64,000 nucleotides of DNA from Synechococcus sp. Nb3U1 (GTDB lineage: Bacteria; Cyanobacteriota; Cyanobacteriia; Thermostichales; Thermostichaceae). A program made the translations under genes and the position numbers. Under the pieces are notes generated by a model. It made no database searches and had not been told where the DNA came from. It saw only the letters and a list, made by a program, of their open reading frames with translations. This document shows, in pieces, positions 1-11,280 of this stretch; positions within the stretch are counted from its first letter, which is position 1, and every line of letters starts with the position of its first letter. The stretch covers positions 964,079-1,028,078 of the forward strand of contig NZ_JAKFYQ010000001.1 in the NCBI RefSeq assembly GCF_021533835.1. The letters run 5' to 3'.

Positions 1-2
1 TT

Positions 3-686
3 TCTACTTCTAAAGCTACTTCTAAAGGCGAACGGCAACCGGCTTCCCCAACCCCTGGATTCACGCCCCCTTTCCAAATTTATAATTTTTTCTCGGCGAC
101 CGAAGCAGAGCAGCTTTTGACCTACAGCCTGGAGCAAGAGGCAGCTTTTGAACCCAGCCAAGGCCAAACCTACGGCACTGAAGACGAACAGTCTCAAGAG
201 GATCGCAACTACCGCTTCTCTTGGGTTTTGGAAACGATTCAGCCCAAAGTGGAAAACCAGATCCGGCAGGCGGTACGAGCCGCTTTGCCCCAAGCCTTGG
301 CGGAATTGGGGATGGATCTCTTTGAGCCTGCCCACATCGAAGTACAACTCACCGCCCACAATCACGGCCACTACTTTAAGTTGCACAACGACAATGGCAG
401 CGAAGTCACGGCCCGCCGTACCCTTACTTTTGTCTACTATTTTTCCCGGCAACCGCAGCCTTTCTTGGGAGGGGAACTGCGGGTCTATCCCGGGGCCGCT
501 GCCAAAGTGGGCGCGGATAGAGGTTTAACCTTGCTCCAGCCACATCTCTACACCCCTATCCAACCTCGCCACAACAGCATTGTCTTTTTTCCCAGCCAGC
601 TTTGGCATGAGGTACGTCGCGTTCGCTGCCCCTCCCGAGTCTTTGCCGACAGTCGCTTTACCTTTAATGGCTGGGTTTACCGCTAG
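3..686 (+). CDS. 2OG-Fe(II) dioxygenase, prolyl 4-hydroxylase type (5' partial)
   Basis: The reading frame is open from the window edge, so the start lies upstream. The visible 227 residues contain the core of a prolyl-4-hydroxylase-like, non-haem iron, 2-oxoglutarate-dependent oxygenase. The iron-binding HxD motif is HND (visible residues 128-130), in the context HYFKLHNDNGS. The distal histidine is in WHEV about 74 residues later, and basic residues follow for 2OG binding (SRF near the C-terminus). The segment YNFFSATEAEQLL near the edge resembles the usual beginning of this fold, so little is probably missing. The next gene starts 45 bases downstream on the same strand. The substrate could be a protein or peptide prolyl residue or a small molecule; the sequence does not decide this. 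Confidence 0.8.
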   Translation, partial: STSKATSKGERQPASPTPGFTPPFQIYNFFSATEAEQLLTYSLEQEAAFEPSQGQTYGTEDEQSQEDRNYRFSWVLETIQPKVENQIRQAVRAALPQALAELGMDLFEPAHIEVQLTAHNHGHYFKLHNDNGSEVTARRTLTFVYYFSRQPQPFLGGELRVYPGAAAKVGADRGLTLLQPHLYTPIQPRHNSIVFFPSQLWHEVRRVRCPSRVFADSRFTFNGWVYR

Positions 687-731
687 GTTCGTTTGAGTTT
701 GTAGCCTGTTTCACCACTTTTGAGGGATCCG

Positions 732-2597
732 ATGCAAATCAGCCAAATCCTCCGCCAACTGCCTGCCGATCTGGAATGGATGGTGCTCTTTGACCTCGCA
801 GCGGTGCGGCAACTGGCTTCCGATGAGGTGGTGCGGGCCATGTACTTTCTGCCGGAAGATCTGGATTTGGATCCCTTTAGTCATGTCATCCTCAGCAGCG
901 AAGGGAGGCTCCTGGCCCCTCAAGCCGTCGGGCCATTACGGGAAGCTGAAACCGGTGCGCCGACTTCCCTGTCTGGGATCCCGCTGAGTCTGGGGGAGCA
1001 GTTTGCCGAGCGGCTGGCCTGGGTGCCTGTCGATGAAGCCGATTGCCTCGGTCTGGGAGAACAGCTCCCTTATGCCCCGGTGCTGCTGCACCTGCGGCTT
1101 GCACAAGGGGTGGGCCAAGCTCAGGCCATTTTTGACCAAGCCCCCAGCCAAGAGCATTACGAGCTGCTGCGAGCGGTGGGGGTAGAGTATCTGGGTGGGG
1201 ATCCCCATCCCAAGGGCTATGTGGCCCATTTCCGTAATCGCCTGCCCGTCCACATCCACACCGGCATCCTCTCCCACTTCGAGCGCACCACCCATTGCAA
1301 CCAGTTTTTCTTACAACATGGGCAGATTGATCCGATTTTGGAAGCCGGTTTGTTGGAGGCTACGACTCGTCGCATGGGTTGGGGACAACGACAGGGATCC
1401 CAGGCAGTGCAGGCATTGGCTGTGCGGGTGGTGCAACAGCCGGAAGTGCCTTTGTCAATGCGTTGCCAGCCCCCTTTGCCGGATCGTCCTTTTGATTATG
1501 GGGATTTGGTGCCCCTGGGTTTCTTGCTACGTGCCCTGAAGACAACCAATCCCGAGTTTTCCGGCCCTTTGCAAGCTCATTTACAAGAGCGGCGCAAGGA
1601 GGATCTGTGGGCGTTTCATTCCGGTCGCTTGATTACGGCCACCGATTCAGCCTTGGTGATGTTGGGCTATTCGGATCGGGCTGGAGCAGAGGCCCTAGAG
1701 CGATTTGCCGACCCGGATGGGGGCTATGTTCCGCAACAGTGGAGATCCAGCCGCGAACAGGATACGCTTACACAAGCTGCGAAGCAGCATCAAATGTTGC
1801 TGGAAGAGGATTGTCGCCATTGGTGTCAGGCGGATTTTGCTACCACCTGTTTGGTACGGGCTTGGCAACGGCAGTGGGATCTTGAGAACACTTCTCTTTC
1901 CTATTTGCAGACCCATTTTGGGGAGCGCTCAGGGCTGTATTTTGCCAACCCGTATCTAGTGGACTGGGCCTTGGCTCTGGCTCTGGCAGAGGATCCGACC
2001 CCAGAAGCTGCTCTGTTACGGGAGCAATTGCAGGCAGAATTGTTGGCTAGCCAGCAACCGGACTACAGCTTTGGCACCTTTGATCCAGCTCTCTCCACGG
2101 CTCTAGGGATCCTCAGCTTGACGGCCTTGGGAGTGCGGGATCGGCGGGTACGCATGGCTCAGCTGCGCTTGGTGGATTGGATGAACCCACAGGGTTACTG
2201 GCCCGTTTCCGCACCCTTCTACTCCAGTTTGCGGTTGGATCCCCAGGAGTCACCGCCTTTGCCCTATCGCCTGCTGTTGAATCGGATCCCGGCCAAGGGG
2301 GACTCTCCCGCCCTGAAATTGGTGCGCTCCGTAGCCGATGAGTACCACGGCATTTCCCTGTACTGGGATCAACATCGTATGATCGGCACTGCTCTGGCCG
2401 TCTTGGCTCTTGCCCAGCCCACCGACGGTGAACGGATGGATCCCTCAACTCCTGCAGATCCCCATCCCCGCTATCGCTGCGCCGATCCAACCGAATACAT
2501 CGCCCGCTGTGCTCTGCCCCCCTATGTTAGCTCAGCACGACTGGGATTGGTTGCTTCAGGAGCCCACTTATCGCGTCAGCGGGACGGAGCCCTATGA
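732..2597 (+). CDS. Alpha/alpha-toroid protein resembling terpene cyclase/prenyltransferase repeats
   Basis: This is a 621-residue protein that I do not recognise as a named enzyme. Its second half shows at least four helical-hairpin repeats of the kind found in squalene cyclases and protein prenyltransferases. Examples are SGRLITATDSALVMLG, FANPYLVDWALALALAE, FDPALSTALGILSLTALG and WDQHRMIGTALAVLALA. A DxDD acid motif of class II cyclases was not seen, so catalysis is uncertain. The N-terminal half has no family I can name; it includes a His/Cys-rich stretch, PVHIHTGILSHFERTTHCNQ. The ATG at 732 is preferred over the in-frame TTG at 720 because GAGGGA lies just before it. The stop overlaps the next gene by four bases (ATGA), which indicates translational coupling. 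Confidence 0.55.
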   Translation: MQISQILRQLPADLEWMVLFDLAAVRQLASDEVVRAMYFLPEDLDLDPFSHVILSSEGRLLAPQAVGPLREAETGAPTSLSGIPLSLGEQFAERLAWVPVDEADCLGLGEQLPYAPVLLHLRLAQGVGQAQAIFDQAPSQEHYELLRAVGVEYLGGDPHPKGYVAHFRNRLPVHIHTGILSHFERTTHCNQFFLQHGQIDPILEAGLLEATTRRMGWGQRQGSQAVQALAVRVVQQPEVPLSMRCQPPLPDRPFDYGDLVPLGFLLRALKTTNPEFSGPLQAHLQERRKEDLWAFHSGRLITATDSALVMLGYSDRAGAEALERFADPDGGYVPQQWRSSREQDTLTQAAKQHQMLLEEDCRHWCQADFATTCLVRAWQRQWDLENTSLSYLQTHFGERSGLYFANPYLVDWALALALAEDPTPEAALLREQLQAELLASQQPDYSFGTFDPALSTALGILSLTALGVRDRRVRMAQLRLVDWMNPQGYWPVSAPFYSSLRLDPQESPPLPYRLLLNRIPAKGDSPALKLVRSVADEYHGISLYWDQHRMIGTALAVLALAQPTDGERMDPSTPADPHPRYRCADPTEYIARCALPPYVSSARLGLVASGAHLSRQRDGAL

Positions 2598-3706
2598 AAA
2601 CCATCGCCATCTGTGGCCGCAATGTCCAAGCGCTGATCCAGCCCCCCAGCTATGTTCAGGAACTCACGGTCGAAGGGGTGACCGTGTATTGTGGGTTGAT
2701 TCACTCGGATCCCCCGAAATTTGACCCTCAGGCAGAAGTCCACTCCGTCTTGATTCGGGTGCGCGCTTTTTCCTGCAACTACCGGGACAAAGCACTGTTG
2801 CTCATGCATACGCTGCAATCGCCCCCTTCTCGTTTTGCCTCGATTGGCTCGGAGTTTGTGGCGGAGGTGATCGAGGTGGGATCCGCAGTGATGGATCTGC
2901 GACCGGGGGATCGGGTGATCGGCAACAACAGCTACCCCGATTCGGGTGTACCGGGTTTGCCACCAGGGATCCCCACCAACCGGGGTTCCAAAGAATATCG
3001 GGTGCTGCATCGGGCCAAGCTGATCCGGATCCCAGACATGATGTCCGACGCTGTAGCCGCCGCCTTCAGCATTGGGGCGCAAACCACCTACAGCATGATC
3101 CGGCGCTTGCAATTATCTCCCGGGGCAAAAGTGTTGGTGACGGCAGCCCGTTCCAATACCTCGCTTTTTGCCATCAATGCCCTACAGCTACATCCGGTGC
3201 GGGTTTTCGCCCTCACCACCTCAGATCGATTTGCCGAACAGATTCAGGCGTTAGGAGTCGAGCAGGTGTTGGTTTTACCCGGATCGGATGTCAACTCCTG
3301 GGAAGAGATCAGGAACTTTAGCCAAACTATCGGTGGGTTTGATGCCGTGATTGATCCCTATTTTGATCTCTACATGGGCAAGGTGGTACCGCTCATGGCG
3401 GCCTGGGGGCGTTACATTACCTGCGGTTTCTACGACCAATACTTGAACCTGCTGGGGCGCGATTTTGAATACTCTGGCCTGTCCTGTCGAGAGATCCTGA
3501 CACATGTGATGCTCAATAACTATTCCCTCATCGGCAACTGCATCGGCCTGGTGGAGGATCTGGAACGAGCTTTGCAAGACTATGCATCGGCACGGCTGAA
3601 GGTGGTGGTGGACTCTGTGTTTACAGAAGATCAGGCGGCTTCCTTTTTTGAGCGAACCTACTGCAGTTCTGATCGGTTTGGGAAAGTGGTTTTGACCTAT
3701 TCCTAA
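2594..3706 (+). CDS. Medium-chain (MDR) zinc-independent oxidoreductase
   Basis: This 370-residue protein of the quinone oxidoreductase/enoyl reductase branch of medium-chain dehydrogenases would carry out an NAD(P)H-linked reduction or oxidation. Visible features are a GroES-like N-terminal half (SCNYRDKALL, GSEFVAEVIEVGSAV, LRPGDRVIG) and a Rossmann-like C-terminal half. No cysteine-rich structural zinc loop is seen. The nucleotide-binding loop reads VLVTAARSNTSLFAINAL, so the usual glycine-rich GxGxxG is replaced by ARSNTS. That is either a subfamily variant or altered cofactor use. The start overlaps the stop of the toroid gene by four bases, so the two products probably work together. 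Confidence 0.75.
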   Translation: MKTIAICGRNVQALIQPPSYVQELTVEGVTVYCGLIHSDPPKFDPQAEVHSVLIRVRAFSCNYRDKALLLMHTLQSPPSRFASIGSEFVAEVIEVGSAVMDLRPGDRVIGNNSYPDSGVPGLPPGIPTNRGSKEYRVLHRAKLIRIPDMMSDAVAAAFSIGAQTTYSMIRRLQLSPGAKVLVTAARSNTSLFAINALQLHPVRVFALTTSDRFAEQIQALGVEQVLVLPGSDVNSWEEIRNFSQTIGGFDAVIDPYFDLYMGKVVPLMAAWGRYITCGFYDQYLNLLGRDFEYSGLSCREILTHVMLNNYSLIGNCIGLVEDLERALQDYASARLKVVVDSVFTEDQAASFFERTYCSSDRFGKVVLTYS

Positions 3707-3762
3707 CGTTTTTACCAAACTGGTTTGCTATTCATGGGCTTTTCACGTGAGGATTCTTGGGA

Positions 3763-5217
3763 ATGCATATTCATCTACTTGGACACGCCACCCTATTTAT
3801 TGAGGCTGCCGATTGTCGCATGCTCATGGATCCGGTGCTGTGGGATCCCTTTTGTGAGGGGTTGAATGCCAGTTGCCCCACCCGCGAGATCGATGTGGAT
3901 CGAATCCCGGAATATGATGTTTTGGTGATTTCCCATCGTCATCTGGATCACTTTGATCTGCGCTCGCTGGCCTACCTACCCAAGCATGTGGATGTGTTGA
4001 TCCCCCCCGACAAACTCCTGCGCAACTGCCTCCGACAGATGGGATATTCAAAAATCTATGCTCTACAAGATTTCTCAAAGGTTGTATTGGGTAAAACCAC
4101 TTTATTGACGACGCGTTCGGAAGTGCGAGTGCCCGAATTTGGGCTGCTTGTTTCGGATCCCTCTGGGGTTTTCTGGAATACCGTTGATACTTTGTTTGCT
4201 CCGCCCACCATTCGCAAAGTGTTGGAAACCTATCCCTCCATCGATTTTATGCTCGGCACCTGGCACATCAGCATGGAGGGGGATCAGCAATACAACAAGC
4301 CTTTAACATTTCCAACAGAACTGTACGGTCAATTGCTCAGCATTTATGATCTGATCCATCCCAAAACTTTTGCCCCAGGGGCACAGGGCTTTAAGTATAT
4401 CGGCAGTTCGGCTTGGCAAAATCAGACGGTGTTTCCGACCACCCGTGAGCGCTTGTGTTACGACTTGGCTCAGGTTTTACCCAAGACTCAAATAATCGAA
4501 ATGAACCCTGGGGATCTTGTTGAGTTAGAAGCTGGCCAAGCTACTCACCACCCTCAAGCCTGTCCCTTCGCCCGCACCTTAGTCGATGACCGCTACCTCC
4601 TGGATTTTGCGCCGGTACTGGCGGGATTCGATTGGCGGGATCCCAACCCAGAGGGCTACGACGAATCTTTAATGCTGCAAGAAATTCGTCAAGAAATCGA
4701 ACAGGAATGGCCAGCCTTCCTGCAAATCCAACAAACGATCTTGTTCAGCGACATGTGGCGTTGGCAGGTGATCTATCAGTTACAAGTGCAGTTTCCCTCA
4801 GGGCCACAGTACTGGTTCATCAACTTTGGGCAAGAACCGATTCAGATTCAATCTGGGCGCAATCCATTGGCCAATTTTTTCGTCTTTATCACGGCTTCAA
4901 TGTTCTACAGTTTGCTGCACCGCATCCGCGATTGGGATTATGTCACCTGTAGTGGAGAATATCGCACCTTTAACAAGGTTTATCGAGTGCATCCTATGGG
5001 CACTCTCAAGCCAGATGCGGCGATATTGTTGGATCCCTTGAGCCTGAAGTTATCGAGCGCTTATGTTGCCGAAAACAATATCCACCAAGATCTAGATCGA
5101 ATTTTACAATCCCCAGATTTTGTAAAAGCGACCCACTCTGAAAGCAGTGATGATAGCTACATGATGAGTTTGGGCAAATCTTTGATCAGAGTACGCAAGA
5201 AAAAAGTAGCGGGGTGA
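3763..5217 (+). CDS. Metallo-beta-lactamase-fold hydrolase with extra C-terminal domain
   Basis: The N-terminal domain opens with the MBL strand pattern HIHLLGHATLFIEAA. It carries the metal-binding signature SHRHLDHFD (His58, His60, Asp62, His63), typical of UlaG-like lactonases and of the CMP-sialic-acid-hydroxylase type of MBL fold. With 484 residues it is about 150-200 residues longer than a simple MBL hydrolase. The extra C-terminal part (aromatic-rich, WRWQVIYQLQVQF and MFYSLLHRIRDWDY) is not one I can name. ATG 3763 is chosen over TTG 3757 because GTGAGGA sits nine bases upstream. It follows the reductase gene by 56 bases and precedes the JmjC gene by four, so it belongs to the same transcription unit. 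The substrate is unknown. Confidence 0.75.
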   Translation: MHIHLLGHATLFIEAADCRMLMDPVLWDPFCEGLNASCPTREIDVDRIPEYDVLVISHRHLDHFDLRSLAYLPKHVDVLIPPDKLLRNCLRQMGYSKIYALQDFSKVVLGKTTLLTTRSEVRVPEFGLLVSDPSGVFWNTVDTLFAPPTIRKVLETYPSIDFMLGTWHISMEGDQQYNKPLTFPTELYGQLLSIYDLIHPKTFAPGAQGFKYIGSSAWQNQTVFPTTRERLCYDLAQVLPKTQIIEMNPGDLVELEAGQATHHPQACPFARTLVDDRYLLDFAPVLAGFDWRDPNPEGYDESLMLQEIRQEIEQEWPAFLQIQQTILFSDMWRWQVIYQLQVQFPSGPQYWFINFGQEPIQIQSGRNPLANFFVFITASMFYSLLHRIRDWDYVTCSGEYRTFNKVYRVHPMGTLKPDAAILLDPLSLKLSSAYVAENNIHQDLDRILQSPDFVKATHSESSDDSYMMSLGKSLIRVRKKKVAG

Positions 5218-5221
5218 ACCT

Positions 5222-6418
5222 ATGGCTAGCAACAAACCCTCTCTCGACTATCTCCTTGATCCGATCCCTTTAGAAACCTTTCTCAACGATCATTGGGAGC
5301 GGCGACCGCTGTGGGTTTCTGGACGGGATCCCGGCTATTTTCAGCATTTATTCTCGGTTGGGGCCTTAGAAGATATCCTACGTTTTTCTCGGGTTAAGCC
5401 CCCTGAAATCAAAGTGGTTCGTGAGCAGCAGGAACTCTTGCCGGAGCGATATCTTAAGCCCACAGGTGAGATCCATCTCAATCAAATCTATAAAGTATTC
5501 ACAGAAGGTTACACCGTTATTATCAATGGCTTGCAACAATTTAATGCTTCTTTAGCCTTATTCTGTTGCAACCTACAAGCATTTCTATGCCATCGCATTG
5601 TTGCGAACTTATATTTTTCACCGCAGGGATCGAAGGCGCTTTTCCCTCACTACGATACCCATGACGTGTTTGTCCTTCAAGTGGAGGGATCCAAGCAATG
5701 GTACCTGTATCCACCCCCGCAGCCTGTGCCGCTCCTTAACAGTTTTCAACCGGTCATTCCTTCTGAGCGGTTGGGATCCCCCCTCAAGGAGGTGTACCTA
5801 CAAGCAGGAGATCTGCTCTACATTCCGCGTGGATTTGTCCACGAGGCAGAAACCCAGACCCAGCCATCCCTACATCTCACCCTAGGGGTTTATCCCTTTC
5901 AGTGGCTGGATTTACTCACCTCCGCTTTGACGGCCCTGAGTTTACAGGAGGAATCTTTACGGAAGGCCTTGCCGCCAGGGTTTTTCCGGCTGCCCCCCGA
6001 TCAATTGGAGGAACACTTTCGGGAACTCTGTCAGCGGCTGGCTCTTCAAACCGATGTAGAAGCGGGGCTATCGCTGCTGATGGATCAATTTATTCGTCAG
6101 GCCATCGTCCAACCGGATCACCATTTCGCCCTCATTCCCCACTTGGATCAGGTACAGATCGACACCTGGGTAGCCAAACGAGTGGGCATGCCCTGTCGCA
6201 TTCTCTCGCAAGGGTTTTCGGTCTCCATTCAGTTCCCTGGTAACACCATCAAGGGGCAAGCCCATTTGGAACCCGCTTTCCAGTACATAGCTGCCGCCAT
6301 CAGCCCATTCCAAGTCTCAGATCTACCCGAATCCCTCTCAGATGAGGCCAAGATCACTCTGGTTCAGCGACTGATTCGGGGTGGGTTGCTGCGTGTCCAT
6401 GCGGACTCCTCGGTTTAA
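5222..6418 (+). CDS. JmjC/cupin-4 2OG-Fe(II) oxygenase
   Basis: This 398-residue protein has the cupin-4 (JmjC-like) fold of bacterial ribosomal-protein hydroxylases such as the RoxA/YcfD family. The iron site is visible as HYD (His143, Asp145) in the block FPHYDTHDVFVLQVEGSKQW, with the distal His207 in IPRGFVHEAE. The C-terminal part (LEEHFRELCQRLALQTDVE and onward) resembles the helical dimerisation/winged-helix region of that family. It lies four bases after the MBL gene and is the second 2OG oxygenase of the block. Known relatives hydroxylate ribosomal protein side chains, but the linkage here suggests a dedicated substrate made or bound by neighbouring products; that is inference. Confidence 0.75.
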   Translation: MASNKPSLDYLLDPIPLETFLNDHWERRPLWVSGRDPGYFQHLFSVGALEDILRFSRVKPPEIKVVREQQELLPERYLKPTGEIHLNQIYKVFTEGYTVIINGLQQFNASLALFCCNLQAFLCHRIVANLYFSPQGSKALFPHYDTHDVFVLQVEGSKQWYLYPPPQPVPLLNSFQPVIPSERLGSPLKEVYLQAGDLLYIPRGFVHEAETQTQPSLHLTLGVYPFQWLDLLTSALTALSLQEESLRKALPPGFFRLPPDQLEEHFRELCQRLALQTDVEAGLSLLMDQFIRQAIVQPDHHFALIPHLDQVQIDTWVAKRVGMPCRILSQGFSVSIQFPGNTIKGQAHLEPAFQYIAAAISPFQVSDLPESLSDEAKITLVQRLIRGGLLRVHADSSV

Positions 6419-7544: not shown

Positions 7545-9581
7545 ATGCAAATTCAACTGAGCTGGGAAGATCCCATTACAGAGGAACAACAGGAACCGAT
7601 CTTTCCATTACCTTTTGCTTTCGGGCGGGATCTCACCCAATTGCCCAGTGAATGGCAGGGGAAAGAAGTATCCCGAGCTGTATTCACCAGTCAAGAAATT
7701 TCTCGCTACCACGCCCTCATCTATCGTAGCGAAGATGGACAGGTGATCTACGAAGATCGCAGTGCCAACGGCAGCCGCATCAACGGCGAAAAAATCCGGC
7801 AGGCACGCCAGGTGCTCAAAGGGGGAGAAGTGGTGCAGTTTGGCCCCTACAGCATCACCGTCAGTTTGGTGCCATCTGAGGATGAGGATCCCGGCGTGAC
7901 ACTCTTAACCAGTGCCCACCGAGGAACTCGTACTCTCTTGCTAGAACCGCCAACGGATCTGATTCACCCAAACACCCGCACCAACATCGAAATTCCCCCG
8001 CCCTCCACAATTGTTTTTGCCCCAGAGCAGCCCGCCGATTCCCGTTCTGCTGGTGAGTTTCCACCCCCACATCTCTTTCAGGCGGAGCAAATTTCCCTCA
8101 GTGCGCTTCAAGCCACAGGATTGCCTGTAGAAGAGGTGGAGTACCTAGCCTTAGGTGGCGGCATGGGTAGCTTCGTGTGGGTAGATACCCTTCGCATTCA
8201 CGGGGTCAAACCGGAACAGATTCGGGTGATTAGCATCGCCAAAAAACCCTACGAACGGTACGATCGGCTGCTGAACAATTGCCAAATTCCCCGTTGGAAA
8301 CGCATTCGTTCTGGGTCGGATTCCTGTCCTGACAACATTTGGGGTTGGCCGGGTTATGCCCTGCGGGACGCTTGGCGTTCCTTTTTTTCGGGTCGTGTTT
8401 TGGAGGCTTTGGGCTTTTTGTGGCAGGTCTTTAGCGAGCCCCTCTTGGCCGACACCTATACACCACGGGCTGGGGATGTTTTTGCCTCCATGGATCGAGA
8501 AGCGGCCCGAATTAGCTGGGATCAAATGCTGCGCTACGGCCATATTCGCGCCATCCGCAAAACCGAAGATGGTCGATATGTGGTGGCCTATTCCGCAACC
8601 CGACCTGGCCATACGGATCACCGTTTTATGGTGGCCAAGTACTTACATTTGGCAACTGGCTATCCTGCCATCAAGTTGCTCAATGACCTACAAGAGTTTC
8701 GAGAACAAACAGGGGATCTCAAATCGGTGGTGCACGGCTACGAACCTCATCCGCACATCTACGAATATCTGGAAAAACATGGCGGTACCATTTTGATTCG
8801 GGGGTTTGGTATCGTCGCCTCACAGGTGATGGATCGGATCTATGAGGCTCGTAAAATTAACCCTCGCATCTCGGTGGTGCACTTGAGTCGTTCCCCAAAA
8901 AGCGGCAATCGCTTTGGACGGGCCAAACGGGCGGTGGATAACCATTGGGAGTTTCAACCCTACAACTGGCCCAAGGGCACTTGGGGGGGAGATCTGCGCG
9001 CCAAGTTGGAGGCTGCTACCCCGCTGGAGCGACGGGAGTTGCTAGAAGTGTGGGGGGGCACTACAACGGCCAGTCGACGCAAATGGCGGCGGACGGTTCG
9101 GCAAGGGTTACGGGAGGGTTGGTATTCGATCGTGTTTGGCAAGGTGGAATCGGTGGTGCTCAGCGATAAGGGCAAGCCGATCACCTACATTCAGGGTACC
9201 CACAACAACACGCAAATGAAAGTTGAGGCGGATTTTGTCATCGACTGCACCGGTTTGGTTTCGGATCCCATGACCAATCCTCTGCTAAACGATCTGATCA
9301 CTCGCTACAATCTGCCCCTCAACCCCCACGGGCGACTGCACGTCTCTAATGATTTTGAGCTGGTGGAAATGCGCAATCGGGATGGGCGGATGTATGCTGC
9401 CGGGATTATTACCTTGGGTGGCCCCTACGCGCCGGTGGATACCTTTTTGGGCTTGCAATACTGTGCTCATCGTTCGGCAGAGCATTTGGTGCGGGTACGA
9501 GCACCGGGCATGAAAACCTTGGAGGGAATTGGATCCCTGTGGCAATGGTGCAAATGGGCTTTGAACATTAGCCCTTCTTAA
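7545..9581 (+). CDS. FHA domain fused to FAD/NAD(P)-binding oxidoreductase
   Basis: A 678-residue fusion. Residues 20-105 form a canonical FHA domain with GRDL (Arg28), ISRYHA (Ser53, His56) and DRSANGSRINGEKI (Asn75-Gly76). A proline-rich linker follows. From about residue 200 a dinucleotide-binding protein begins with YLALGGGMGSF, a GxGxxG-type loop. Further on come ATGYPAIKLL, GGTILIRGFGIVASQVMD and VEADFVIDCTGLVSDP, which are consistent with a two-dinucleotide-binding flavoprotein. I do not recognise the substrate. The arrangement suggests a redox enzyme recruited to or controlled by a phosphothreonine partner. GGGAG at 7531 supports the ATG at 7545. A small membrane protein gene follows after about 115 bases. 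Confidence 0.7.
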   Translation: MQIQLSWEDPITEEQQEPIFPLPFAFGRDLTQLPSEWQGKEVSRAVFTSQEISRYHALIYRSEDGQVIYEDRSANGSRINGEKIRQARQVLKGGEVVQFGPYSITVSLVPSEDEDPGVTLLTSAHRGTRTLLLEPPTDLIHPNTRTNIEIPPPSTIVFAPEQPADSRSAGEFPPPHLFQAEQISLSALQATGLPVEEVEYLALGGGMGSFVWVDTLRIHGVKPEQIRVISIAKKPYERYDRLLNNCQIPRWKRIRSGSDSCPDNIWGWPGYALRDAWRSFFSGRVLEALGFLWQVFSEPLLADTYTPRAGDVFASMDREAARISWDQMLRYGHIRAIRKTEDGRYVVAYSATRPGHTDHRFMVAKYLHLATGYPAIKLLNDLQEFREQTGDLKSVVHGYEPHPHIYEYLEKHGGTILIRGFGIVASQVMDRIYEARKINPRISVVHLSRSPKSGNRFGRAKRAVDNHWEFQPYNWPKGTWGGDLRAKLEAATPLERRELLEVWGGTTTASRRKWRRTVRQGLREGWYSIVFGKVESVVLSDKGKPITYIQGTHNNTQMKVEADFVIDCTGLVSDPMTNPLLNDLITRYNLPLNPHGRLHVSNDFELVEMRNRDGRMYAAGIITLGGPYAPVDTFLGLQYCAHRSAEHLVRVRAPGMKTLEGIGSLWQWCKWALNISPS

Positions 9582-10313: not shown

Positions 10314-11249
10314 ATGCAAGCCTGTACTCTGATTGCTCGCGCCAAAATCAATCTCTACCTGGAAATTCTTGGATCCCGTCCGGATGGGTATTCAGAGGTA
10401 GCGATGGTGCTGCAGAGCATTCACCTGGCGGATCGGGTGCAGTTGAAACGCCGCCATCACGGGATCCACCTCAGGTGTGATCACCCCGAAGTACCGACAG
10501 ATGTCAACAACCTTGCCTACAAAGCGGCTGAGCTGTTGCAAAAAGAATGCCACTCCTCGGCTGGGGTCGAGATTCACATCGAAAAGCACATTCCGGTGGC
10601 AGCCGGCTTAGCTGGCGGCTCGGCCAATGCGGCGGCGGTGTTGGTGGGGATGAACCAACTGTGGGGATTGGGCCTAACGGTGGGAGATTTGCAGAGCTTA
10701 GCCTCTCGGCTGGGATCCGATATTCCCTTTTGTGTGCAGGGGGGAACCCAACTGGCCACCGGGCGAGGAGAAATTCTAGAACCGCTGGCGGATTGGGAGG
10801 GGATCCCTTTGTTGCTGGCCAAACCCAGACATTTGGGAGTTTCCACCGCCTGGGCCTACCAGGCCTTCCGGTCACTGCAAGAGGATAGCACCTCGGGTTC
10901 TCAGCCCTATGACACGGTTTCTAGCCTGCCCCAGGTGTTGGTGGCCTTTGACCGTCAGGATCCGCAAGCTTTGGCGAACAGTTTGCGCAATGACCTAGAA
11001 AAACCTGTGCTGGCCACATATACCCTTGTGGGGGAATTACGAAGTGCCCTGCGCTCAGCGGGGGCCCTTGGATCCCTGATGTCCGGATCAGGGCCAACAG
11101 TCTTTGGGATCATGCCCAGCTTGGAACAAGCCTCTCAAACGCGGGACACCTTGCGGCGACAGTTTCAGGATGTGGATTTTTGGGTGACTCAATCAGCTCC
11201 CACCGGCATCCTCCTGGAGCCGGATCCCCAAAGCCTTAGCCTCAGCTAG
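10314..11249 (+). CDS. ispE: 4-diphosphocytidyl-2-C-methyl-D-erythritol kinase
   Basis: IspE phosphorylates CDP-methylerythritol at the 2-hydroxyl in the plastid/bacterial MEP route to isoprenoids, which supplies carotenoid, phytol and quinone side chains. GHMP-kinase landmarks are visible: ARAKINLYLEILGSRPDGYS at the N-terminus, the ATP loop PVAAGLAGGSANAAA and the C-terminal glycine motif GSLMSGSGPTVFG. The length of about 311 residues fits the family. ATG 10314 is used; a GTG at 10302 would add four residues. It is convergent with the phn transporter, whose last gene ends 31 bases away. Confidence 0.95.
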   Translation: MQACTLIARAKINLYLEILGSRPDGYSEVAMVLQSIHLADRVQLKRRHHGIHLRCDHPEVPTDVNNLAYKAAELLQKECHSSAGVEIHIEKHIPVAAGLAGGSANAAAVLVGMNQLWGLGLTVGDLQSLASRLGSDIPFCVQGGTQLATGRGEILEPLADWEGIPLLLAKPRHLGVSTAWAYQAFRSLQEDSTSGSQPYDTVSSLPQVLVAFDRQDPQALANSLRNDLEKPVLATYTLVGELRSALRSAGALGSLMSGSGPTVFGIMPSLEQASQTRDTLRRQFQDVDFWVTQSAPTGILLEPDPQSLSLS

Positions 11250-11280
11250 AGCGTGGGCCAGATCCATGGGCTAGATCAAT

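Follow-up and report, generated by a model that had tools for sequence, protein, structure and literature searches.

A five-gene block in Synechococcus sp. Nb3U1 and its probable role in tailoring ribosomal peptides at a C-terminal tryptophan

Results

The stretch of DNA analysed here (the window) comprises 64,000 nucleotides of the genome of Synechococcus sp. Nb3U1 (labelled G000; G000:C1:964079-1028078). It opens with a block of five genes, all on the + strand, whose place in a pathway for ribosomally synthesised and post-translationally modified peptides (RiPPs) is the subject of this work. Gene 1 enters the window from upstream, and its C-terminal part (1..686) encodes a 2-oxoglutarate (2OG)-Fe(II) oxygenase domain. 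It is followed by gene 2 (732..2597), encoding a two-domain protein of 621 residues, gene 3 (2594..3706), encoding a medium-chain dehydrogenase/reductase (MDR), gene 4 (3763..5217), encoding a UlaG-like protein of the metallo-beta-lactamase (MBL) fold, and gene 5 (5222..6418), encoding a JmjC_2/cupin-4 oxygenase related to the ribosomal oxygenases MINA and NO66. The best start codons were ATG 732 for gene 2 and ATG 3763 for gene 4. An original prediction, made from the letters of the window, had placed five open reading frames (ORFs) on this strand, with an ATGA overlap at 2594-2597 and a four-base gap at 5218-5221, and had joined them in one pathway; the frames, the overlap and the gap are all present. 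Terminators separating the genes and independently scattered homologues had been named as signs against such a pathway. No convincing terminators were found between the five genes (counts not above those in shuffles), and independent scattering was not seen for genes 1-4. No precursor peptide was found within or adjoining the block.

Gene 1 is cut by the window edge, and what had been described as a 2OG oxygenase is a protein of 627 residues in which that domain is fused to a predicted prenyltransferase. The entire gene lies at G000:C1:962881/962905-964764 (L005:10882/10906-12765), and its start, a GTG (962881) or an ATG (962905), precedes the window by about 1,180 bases. The 2OG domain alone (Pfam 2OG-FeII_Oxy_3, 2.7e-17, residues 515-626) falls inside the window, while the N-terminal ~400 residues, which are key to function, fall outside; a window edge can thus hide a decisive domain. 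This N-terminal part gave no match by sequence in Pfam, NCBIfam or solved structures, profile searches against PDB sequences and Pfam included. It is 38% identical (E 5e-72) to an ORF directly 3' of the precursor in locus L099, which matches the mpp cluster of Moorena producens. That cluster comprises the prenyltransferase MppC, the "terpene synthase" MppD and the Nif11 precursor MppE (PMC11791876, PMC12715784), and MppC geranylates Trp82 in a leader-dependent manner (PMC12715784). The L099 precursor of 84 residues (77-residue leader, core ACWRWSG, residues L66, L71, C79, W80 and W82) matches all published features of MppE, which identifies it as MppE by sequence (PMC11791876). The adjacent ORF is the sole prenyltransferase candidate in that stretch, and it agrees with published MppC in having Phe at position 340. 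Since gene 1 is homologous to this ORF beside MppE, and the gene-1 domains of loci carrying gene 2 (hereafter toroid loci) form one clade with it (support 97/90), gene 1 most likely combines an MppC-type peptide prenyltransferase with a dioxygenase in one protein.

Gene 1 ends in the same fused 2OG domain in two other loci, L059 and L060. In a profile search, the wider family of the gene-1 domain was detected in 16 of 386 genomes, three weak matches being discounted, with members in LanM clusters and lasso-peptide clusters. The relatives within lasso-peptide clusters (L103 and L107) are probably lasso-peptide prenyltransferases. In L106 (11241-13414), a gene-1 relative is followed by an SHC-like toroid (SHC, squalene-hopene cyclase) of 360 residues and by a pair of PhyH oxygenases, next to an NHLP-like peptide; this arrangement resembles the prenyltransferase-cyclase pair of NctPC, but unfused.

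The original view of gene 2 as an alpha/alpha-toroid protein held for its C-terminal ~360 residues (1500..2597), whereas the first ~255 (732..1499) form a separate conserved domain of no recognised family. No part of gene 2 gave a sequence match in Pfam, NCBIfam or solved structures, profile searches included. When the gene-2 profile was compared with 275 unrelated ORFs of the same loci, the toroid of the best MppD candidate in the mpp locus, a fusion of FAD oxidase and toroid, ranked first (P 3e-4; runner-up 0.019). The reverse comparison by hhalign, MppD toroid against gene-2 toroid, gave a probability of 89 (P 2.5e-6) over 240 columns. The MppD-candidate toroid in turn matches SHCs (hhalign probability 94-95) and Pfam SQHop_cyclase_C (2e-7), and its discoverers annotated MppD as a terpene synthase (PMC11791876, PMC12715784). 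The two matches together therefore suggest that the last ~360 residues of gene 2 are a distant member of the SHC-type toroids, linked to them through MppD. In the aligned stretch, gene 2 has TATDSA where MppD has TAEDSA. As gene 2 does not align directly to SHCs, we can only infer that its T-A-T-D takes the position of the DXDD motif. Many polar and Cys/His residues are conserved among the gene-2 homologues (HWCQ, D-Y-S-F-G, H-I-H).

Genes of the block recur in 12 other cyanobacterial genomes, and the prenyltransferase-toroid pair is intact in nine of them. Gene 2 was found at ~50% identity in distant cyanobacteria: in four others among 386 genomes drawn across the phylum, in Hyella patelloides, and in further members of one family, where 11 genomes gave matches with an E value of 1e-3 or below, full length in seven (two of these already in the 386-genome set). 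A single-sequence search did not find it in 58 relatives, including the other five genus genomes searched. A homologue of the gene-1 N-terminal domain directly adjoins gene 2 in 10 of the 11 full-length toroid loci, the window counted, so this prenyltransferase has a conserved partner protein without a named family. The toroid loci contain Nif11-type precursors (NHLP-type in Hyella) and often genes for LanM synthetases, features by which they are classed as RiPP clusters; no precursor was found within the ~20 kb read around L127 and L128. Small 2OG oxygenases are frequent there, and a second MBL protein of ~489 residues is present in nine of the ten other full-length loci. This protein (L071:11696-13165 and its toroid-locus homologues) has a conserved N-terminal domain of ~170 residues, then an MBL domain (HSHYDH), and may be a leader-binding component.

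LanM genes occur in eight homologous loci; none was found near the block or the precursors in the window's genome, the rest of which was not searched for LanM. Those in L056, L059, L060, L127, L129 and L130 lie in clusters whose cores mostly lack Cys, where a role in dehydration only, or on other substrates, is possible.

Like the prenyltransferase domain, the precursor peptides lie outside the window. The window's genome encodes five Nif11 precursors (L071 and L072), all five ending in Trp, at C1 ~341-343 kb, beside a gene for the 489-residue MBL protein, and at C2 ~778-779 kb; the match to the Nif11 leader model scored 45.3 bits against a cut-off of 32.3. The core of one of them (L071:10985-11311) ends in KIPKPKW. 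Among the 36 precursors of toroid loci, a set that includes both of these sites, Trp is the last residue in 35 and follows Lys in 30 (-KW), in contrast to a terminal Trp in 1 of 12 precursors beside gene-1 relatives without gene 2. Counted by locus, Trp termination was found in 11/11 toroid loci vs 1/6 prenyltransferase-only loci (Fisher p ~0.001, a guide only, as the loci are related and two of the 11 come from one genome). The C-terminal Trp is thus conserved, and with it the toroid loci follow a substrate rule of a terminal Trp, mostly preceded by Lys. The cores are hydrophobic and 34 of 36 contain no Cys, so that most cannot form lanthionine rings; a lanthipeptide was rejected as the product class on this ground. 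Many cores have no aromatic nucleophile besides the C-terminal Trp.

Several precursors stand apart. Two orphan -KW Nif11 precursors (L072:10140-10481 and 11082-11258, G000:C2 ~778-779 kb) have no maturase within the ~20 kb read, and dispersed precursors of this kind are also a feature of prochlorosin-type systems. A shortened precursor lying between intact ones (L071:10575-10805), a leader that lacks the Gly-Gly and the core, is apparently a remnant of decay or duplication. A sixth Nif11-type precursor (L073:7580-7957, G000:C1 ~1589.7 kb) has a core ending in WWGDDYGC, not -KW.

The sister species G005 provides a natural deletion of the block. What is left of the block at either end, and the flank downstream of it, are 82-89% identical to the window at the nucleotide level, and one clean deletion of ~6 kb (window -592 to 5487), at a 7-base near-direct repeat, fuses codon ~200 of gene 1 to the interior of gene 5; all five genes were lost together. 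The -KW precursors and a gene for the 489-residue type of MBL protein are still present, which makes this species a ready-made natural control. Among the eight relatives searched (five of the genus), G005 alone, besides the window's genome, has precursors, and the four other genus species searched have no precursors, gene 2, gene 4 or gene 5. That precursors are confined to the species carrying the block and the one carrying its relic argues that precursors and block share one history.

The families originally given to genes 3, 4 and 5, like that of the gene-1 oxygenase domain, agree with Pfam (ADH_N, Lactamase_B_3 and JmjC_2). The nucleotide loop of gene 3, noted before as altered, is non-glycine (TAARSNTS), and the alteration is conserved: TAA[RK]SNTSLFAI occurs in the window and three homologues and TAGKSNTSLFAI in a fourth, a fifth being truncated. 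Gene 4 has the HRHLDH motif, and past residue ~100 no family was recognised, as the prediction had said of its C-terminal domain, which is conserved. Homologues of gene 3 are found in six full-length toroid loci including the window (five others) and those of gene 4 in five including the window (four others), in both cases with the gene order of the window. Gene 5 (JmjC_2, 5.4e-27) aligns to MINA over residues 8-241, with HYD and the distal His of the HxD...H facial triad in register. No relative of it was found in any other toroid locus examined, and elsewhere only the relic in G005; gene 5 was therefore rejected as a core member of the pathway and is an accessory found only in this block and that relic. 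The proposal of one pathway accordingly stood for genes 1-4, which recur together and are inherited together in other cyanobacteria, and not for gene 5.

Gene 5 shares the JmjC_2 family with the ribosomal oxygenases MINA, NO66 and YcfD, but it lies within a RiPP tailoring operon and no link to a ribosomal protein was seen. In the mpp locus, a DUF6445 protein (L099:15021-16109), probably MppG, is 33% identical over its C-terminal ~90 residues to the C-terminus of gene 5, which suggests a common accessory domain on two unrelated oxygenases.

Discussion

Membership of the block in a RiPP pathway is secure, and prenylation of Trp is likely from the homologies described. We hold it reasonably probable, with clear room for doubt, that the block is the tailoring operon of this pathway, in which a C-terminal Trp is prenylated, the toroid protein remodels the prenyl group and oxidation follows. 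The substrates would be the Nif11-leader precursors, whose genes lie at other sites of the genome and whose cores are hydrophobic, lack Cys and terminate in Lys-Trp. Gene 1, through its prenyltransferase domain, would place an allylic prenyl group (C10-C20) on the indole of the C-terminal Trp, and the toroid of gene 2 would take the prenylated peptide and fold or cyclise the prenyl chain. The fused 2OG domain, together with the JmjC enzyme of gene 5 in this strain, would hydroxylate the product, the MDR of gene 3 would carry out a redox step and the MBL protein of gene 4 a hydrolytic or metal-dependent step, and the leader would be removed at Gly-Gly during export. Homology argues strongly for prenylation, moderately for its site and weakly for cyclisation and the later steps. 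The substrates originally guessed had included both a peptide and a terpenoid, and the pathway appears to be of peptide-terpenoid type.

Several observations weigh against this proposal. The identification of the L099 ORF as MppC is based on gene position and precursor identity, and its residue 336 is Leu where published MppC has W336, which we take as a strain difference. The gene-1 domain showed no similarity to cyanobactin prenyltransferases (TIGR04445) above decoys (hhalign probability 0.6) and matched no NCBIfam model. Gene 2 compared directly with SHCs showed no detectable similarity (probability 0.1), and none of the 11 full-length gene-2 proteins has DXDD, the motif that donates the proton in class II terpene cyclases. 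AlphaFold gave no usable fold for the Hyella gene-1 homologue or for gene 2 (window and Hyella), with a predicted local distance difference test score (pLDDT) of 33-34 in each case. Lastly, in the window's genome the block and the precursors are unlinked.

The missing DXDD and the lack of direct SHC similarity are what one would expect if, within the same RiPP prenylation pathway, gene 2 were no cyclase but a partner, with a different catalytic activity or none, whose toroid binds the leader or the prenylated Trp and hands it on to the oxygenase, the reductase and the MBL enzyme. The conserved additional N-terminal domain, the strict pairing with gene 1 and the tight conservation across distant families fit such a partner as well. 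Its conserved polar and Cys/His residues, however, look catalytic or metal-binding, its nearest relative was annotated as a terpene synthase, and NctPC provides a precedent for a prenyltransferase-cyclase pairing on Trp; we therefore regard a non-cyclase gene 2 as unlikely, while giving it real weight. That -KW is fixed while the cores vary greatly, as for a recognition signal, and that other nucleophiles are present in cores, could instead mean that the C-terminal (Lys-)Trp is merely a tag for a processing enzyme or exporter, with the prenyltransferase and toroid acting on another core residue. Against this stand the many cores without another aromatic nucleophile, the failure of MppC to accept His or Tyr as substitutes for its Trp (PMC12715784), and the missing tag in prenyltransferase clusters without gene 2, and we consider it improbable.

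A free terpenoid or lipid small-molecule pathway unrelated to ribosomal peptides would accommodate the unlinked precursors, and terpenoid pathways also have 2OG, MDR and MBL enzymes; yet the homologous loci hold Nif11/NHLP precursors, usually with LanM genes, and within the genus the presence of precursors tracks the block, so that we give this explanation hardly any credence. Returning to remodelling of a prenylated C-terminal Trp, a bolder form of the proposal, towards which we are tentative and rather more doubtful than inclined, is that gene 2 is the founder of a new class of isoprenoid cyclases that are dedicated to peptides and lack the DXDD acid, acting on the prenylated C-terminal Trp of long Cys-free Nif11/NHLP peptides, and that the loci form a new RiPP class of linear peptides capped by an oxidised, cyclised terpenoid-tryptophan.

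The statement in the original prediction that no described system has this composition was too strong. In the mpp cluster, a prenyltransferase of which gene 1 is a homologue is paired with a relative of the gene-2 toroid (PMC11791876, PMC12715784), and this cluster likewise has a Nif11 leader, an oxygenase and a Trp acceptor near the C-terminus. It differs in its seven-residue lanthionine core, which is not Trp-terminated, its halogenase and arginases, and its MppD candidate, an FAD oxidase-toroid fusion with TAED where gene 2 has TATD; the present system has the prenyltransferase-2OG fusion, long hydrophobic Cys-free cores, and MDR and MBL enzymes. Polycyclic isoprenoid moieties on RiPPs are also known: PMC13290415 describes NctPC-type RiPPs (Hubrich 2024) with cyclised geranylgeranyl groups, made by a prenyltransferase-cyclase fusion with an MstE-like cyclase, whose alpha-beta-beta-alpha prenyltransferase acts on Trp. 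Both systems pair a Trp prenyltransferase with a terpene-cyclase-type domain; NctPC is fused, whereas the present system has two proteins, a prenyltransferase and a far-diverged toroid with an additional N-terminal domain and no DXDD.

The same source summarises PalQ of Paenibacillus (PMC10853753), a prenyltransferase of the trans-isoprenyl-diphosphate-synthase type that prenylates the C-terminal Trp of a RiPP. The proposed modification is alike, but gene 1 is of the MppC family. Cyanobactin prenyltransferases also prenylate peptides in cyanobacteria, but besides the negative profile comparison no cyanobactin genes lie nearby. RiPPs with prenylated Trp (MppC) and with cyclised geranylgeranyl groups (NctPC) are thus already known, and the novelty here lies in a toroid that is a separate protein with an additional domain and no DXDD, in the fusion of prenyltransferase and 2OG oxygenase, in a C-terminal Trp that hardly ever varies, and in substrates that lack Cys and come with two types of leader. 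Cyclised isoprenoid groups on RiPPs were described only very recently (2024), with few examples, and the present finding adds a distinct family across several cyanobacterial families.

Beyond the block, window positions 7545-9581 encode a protein of 678 residues with an FHA domain at its N-terminus; the rest of it is long and oxidoreductase-like, with no more than marginal matches to FAD families, and this protein is strongly conserved in the sister species G005.

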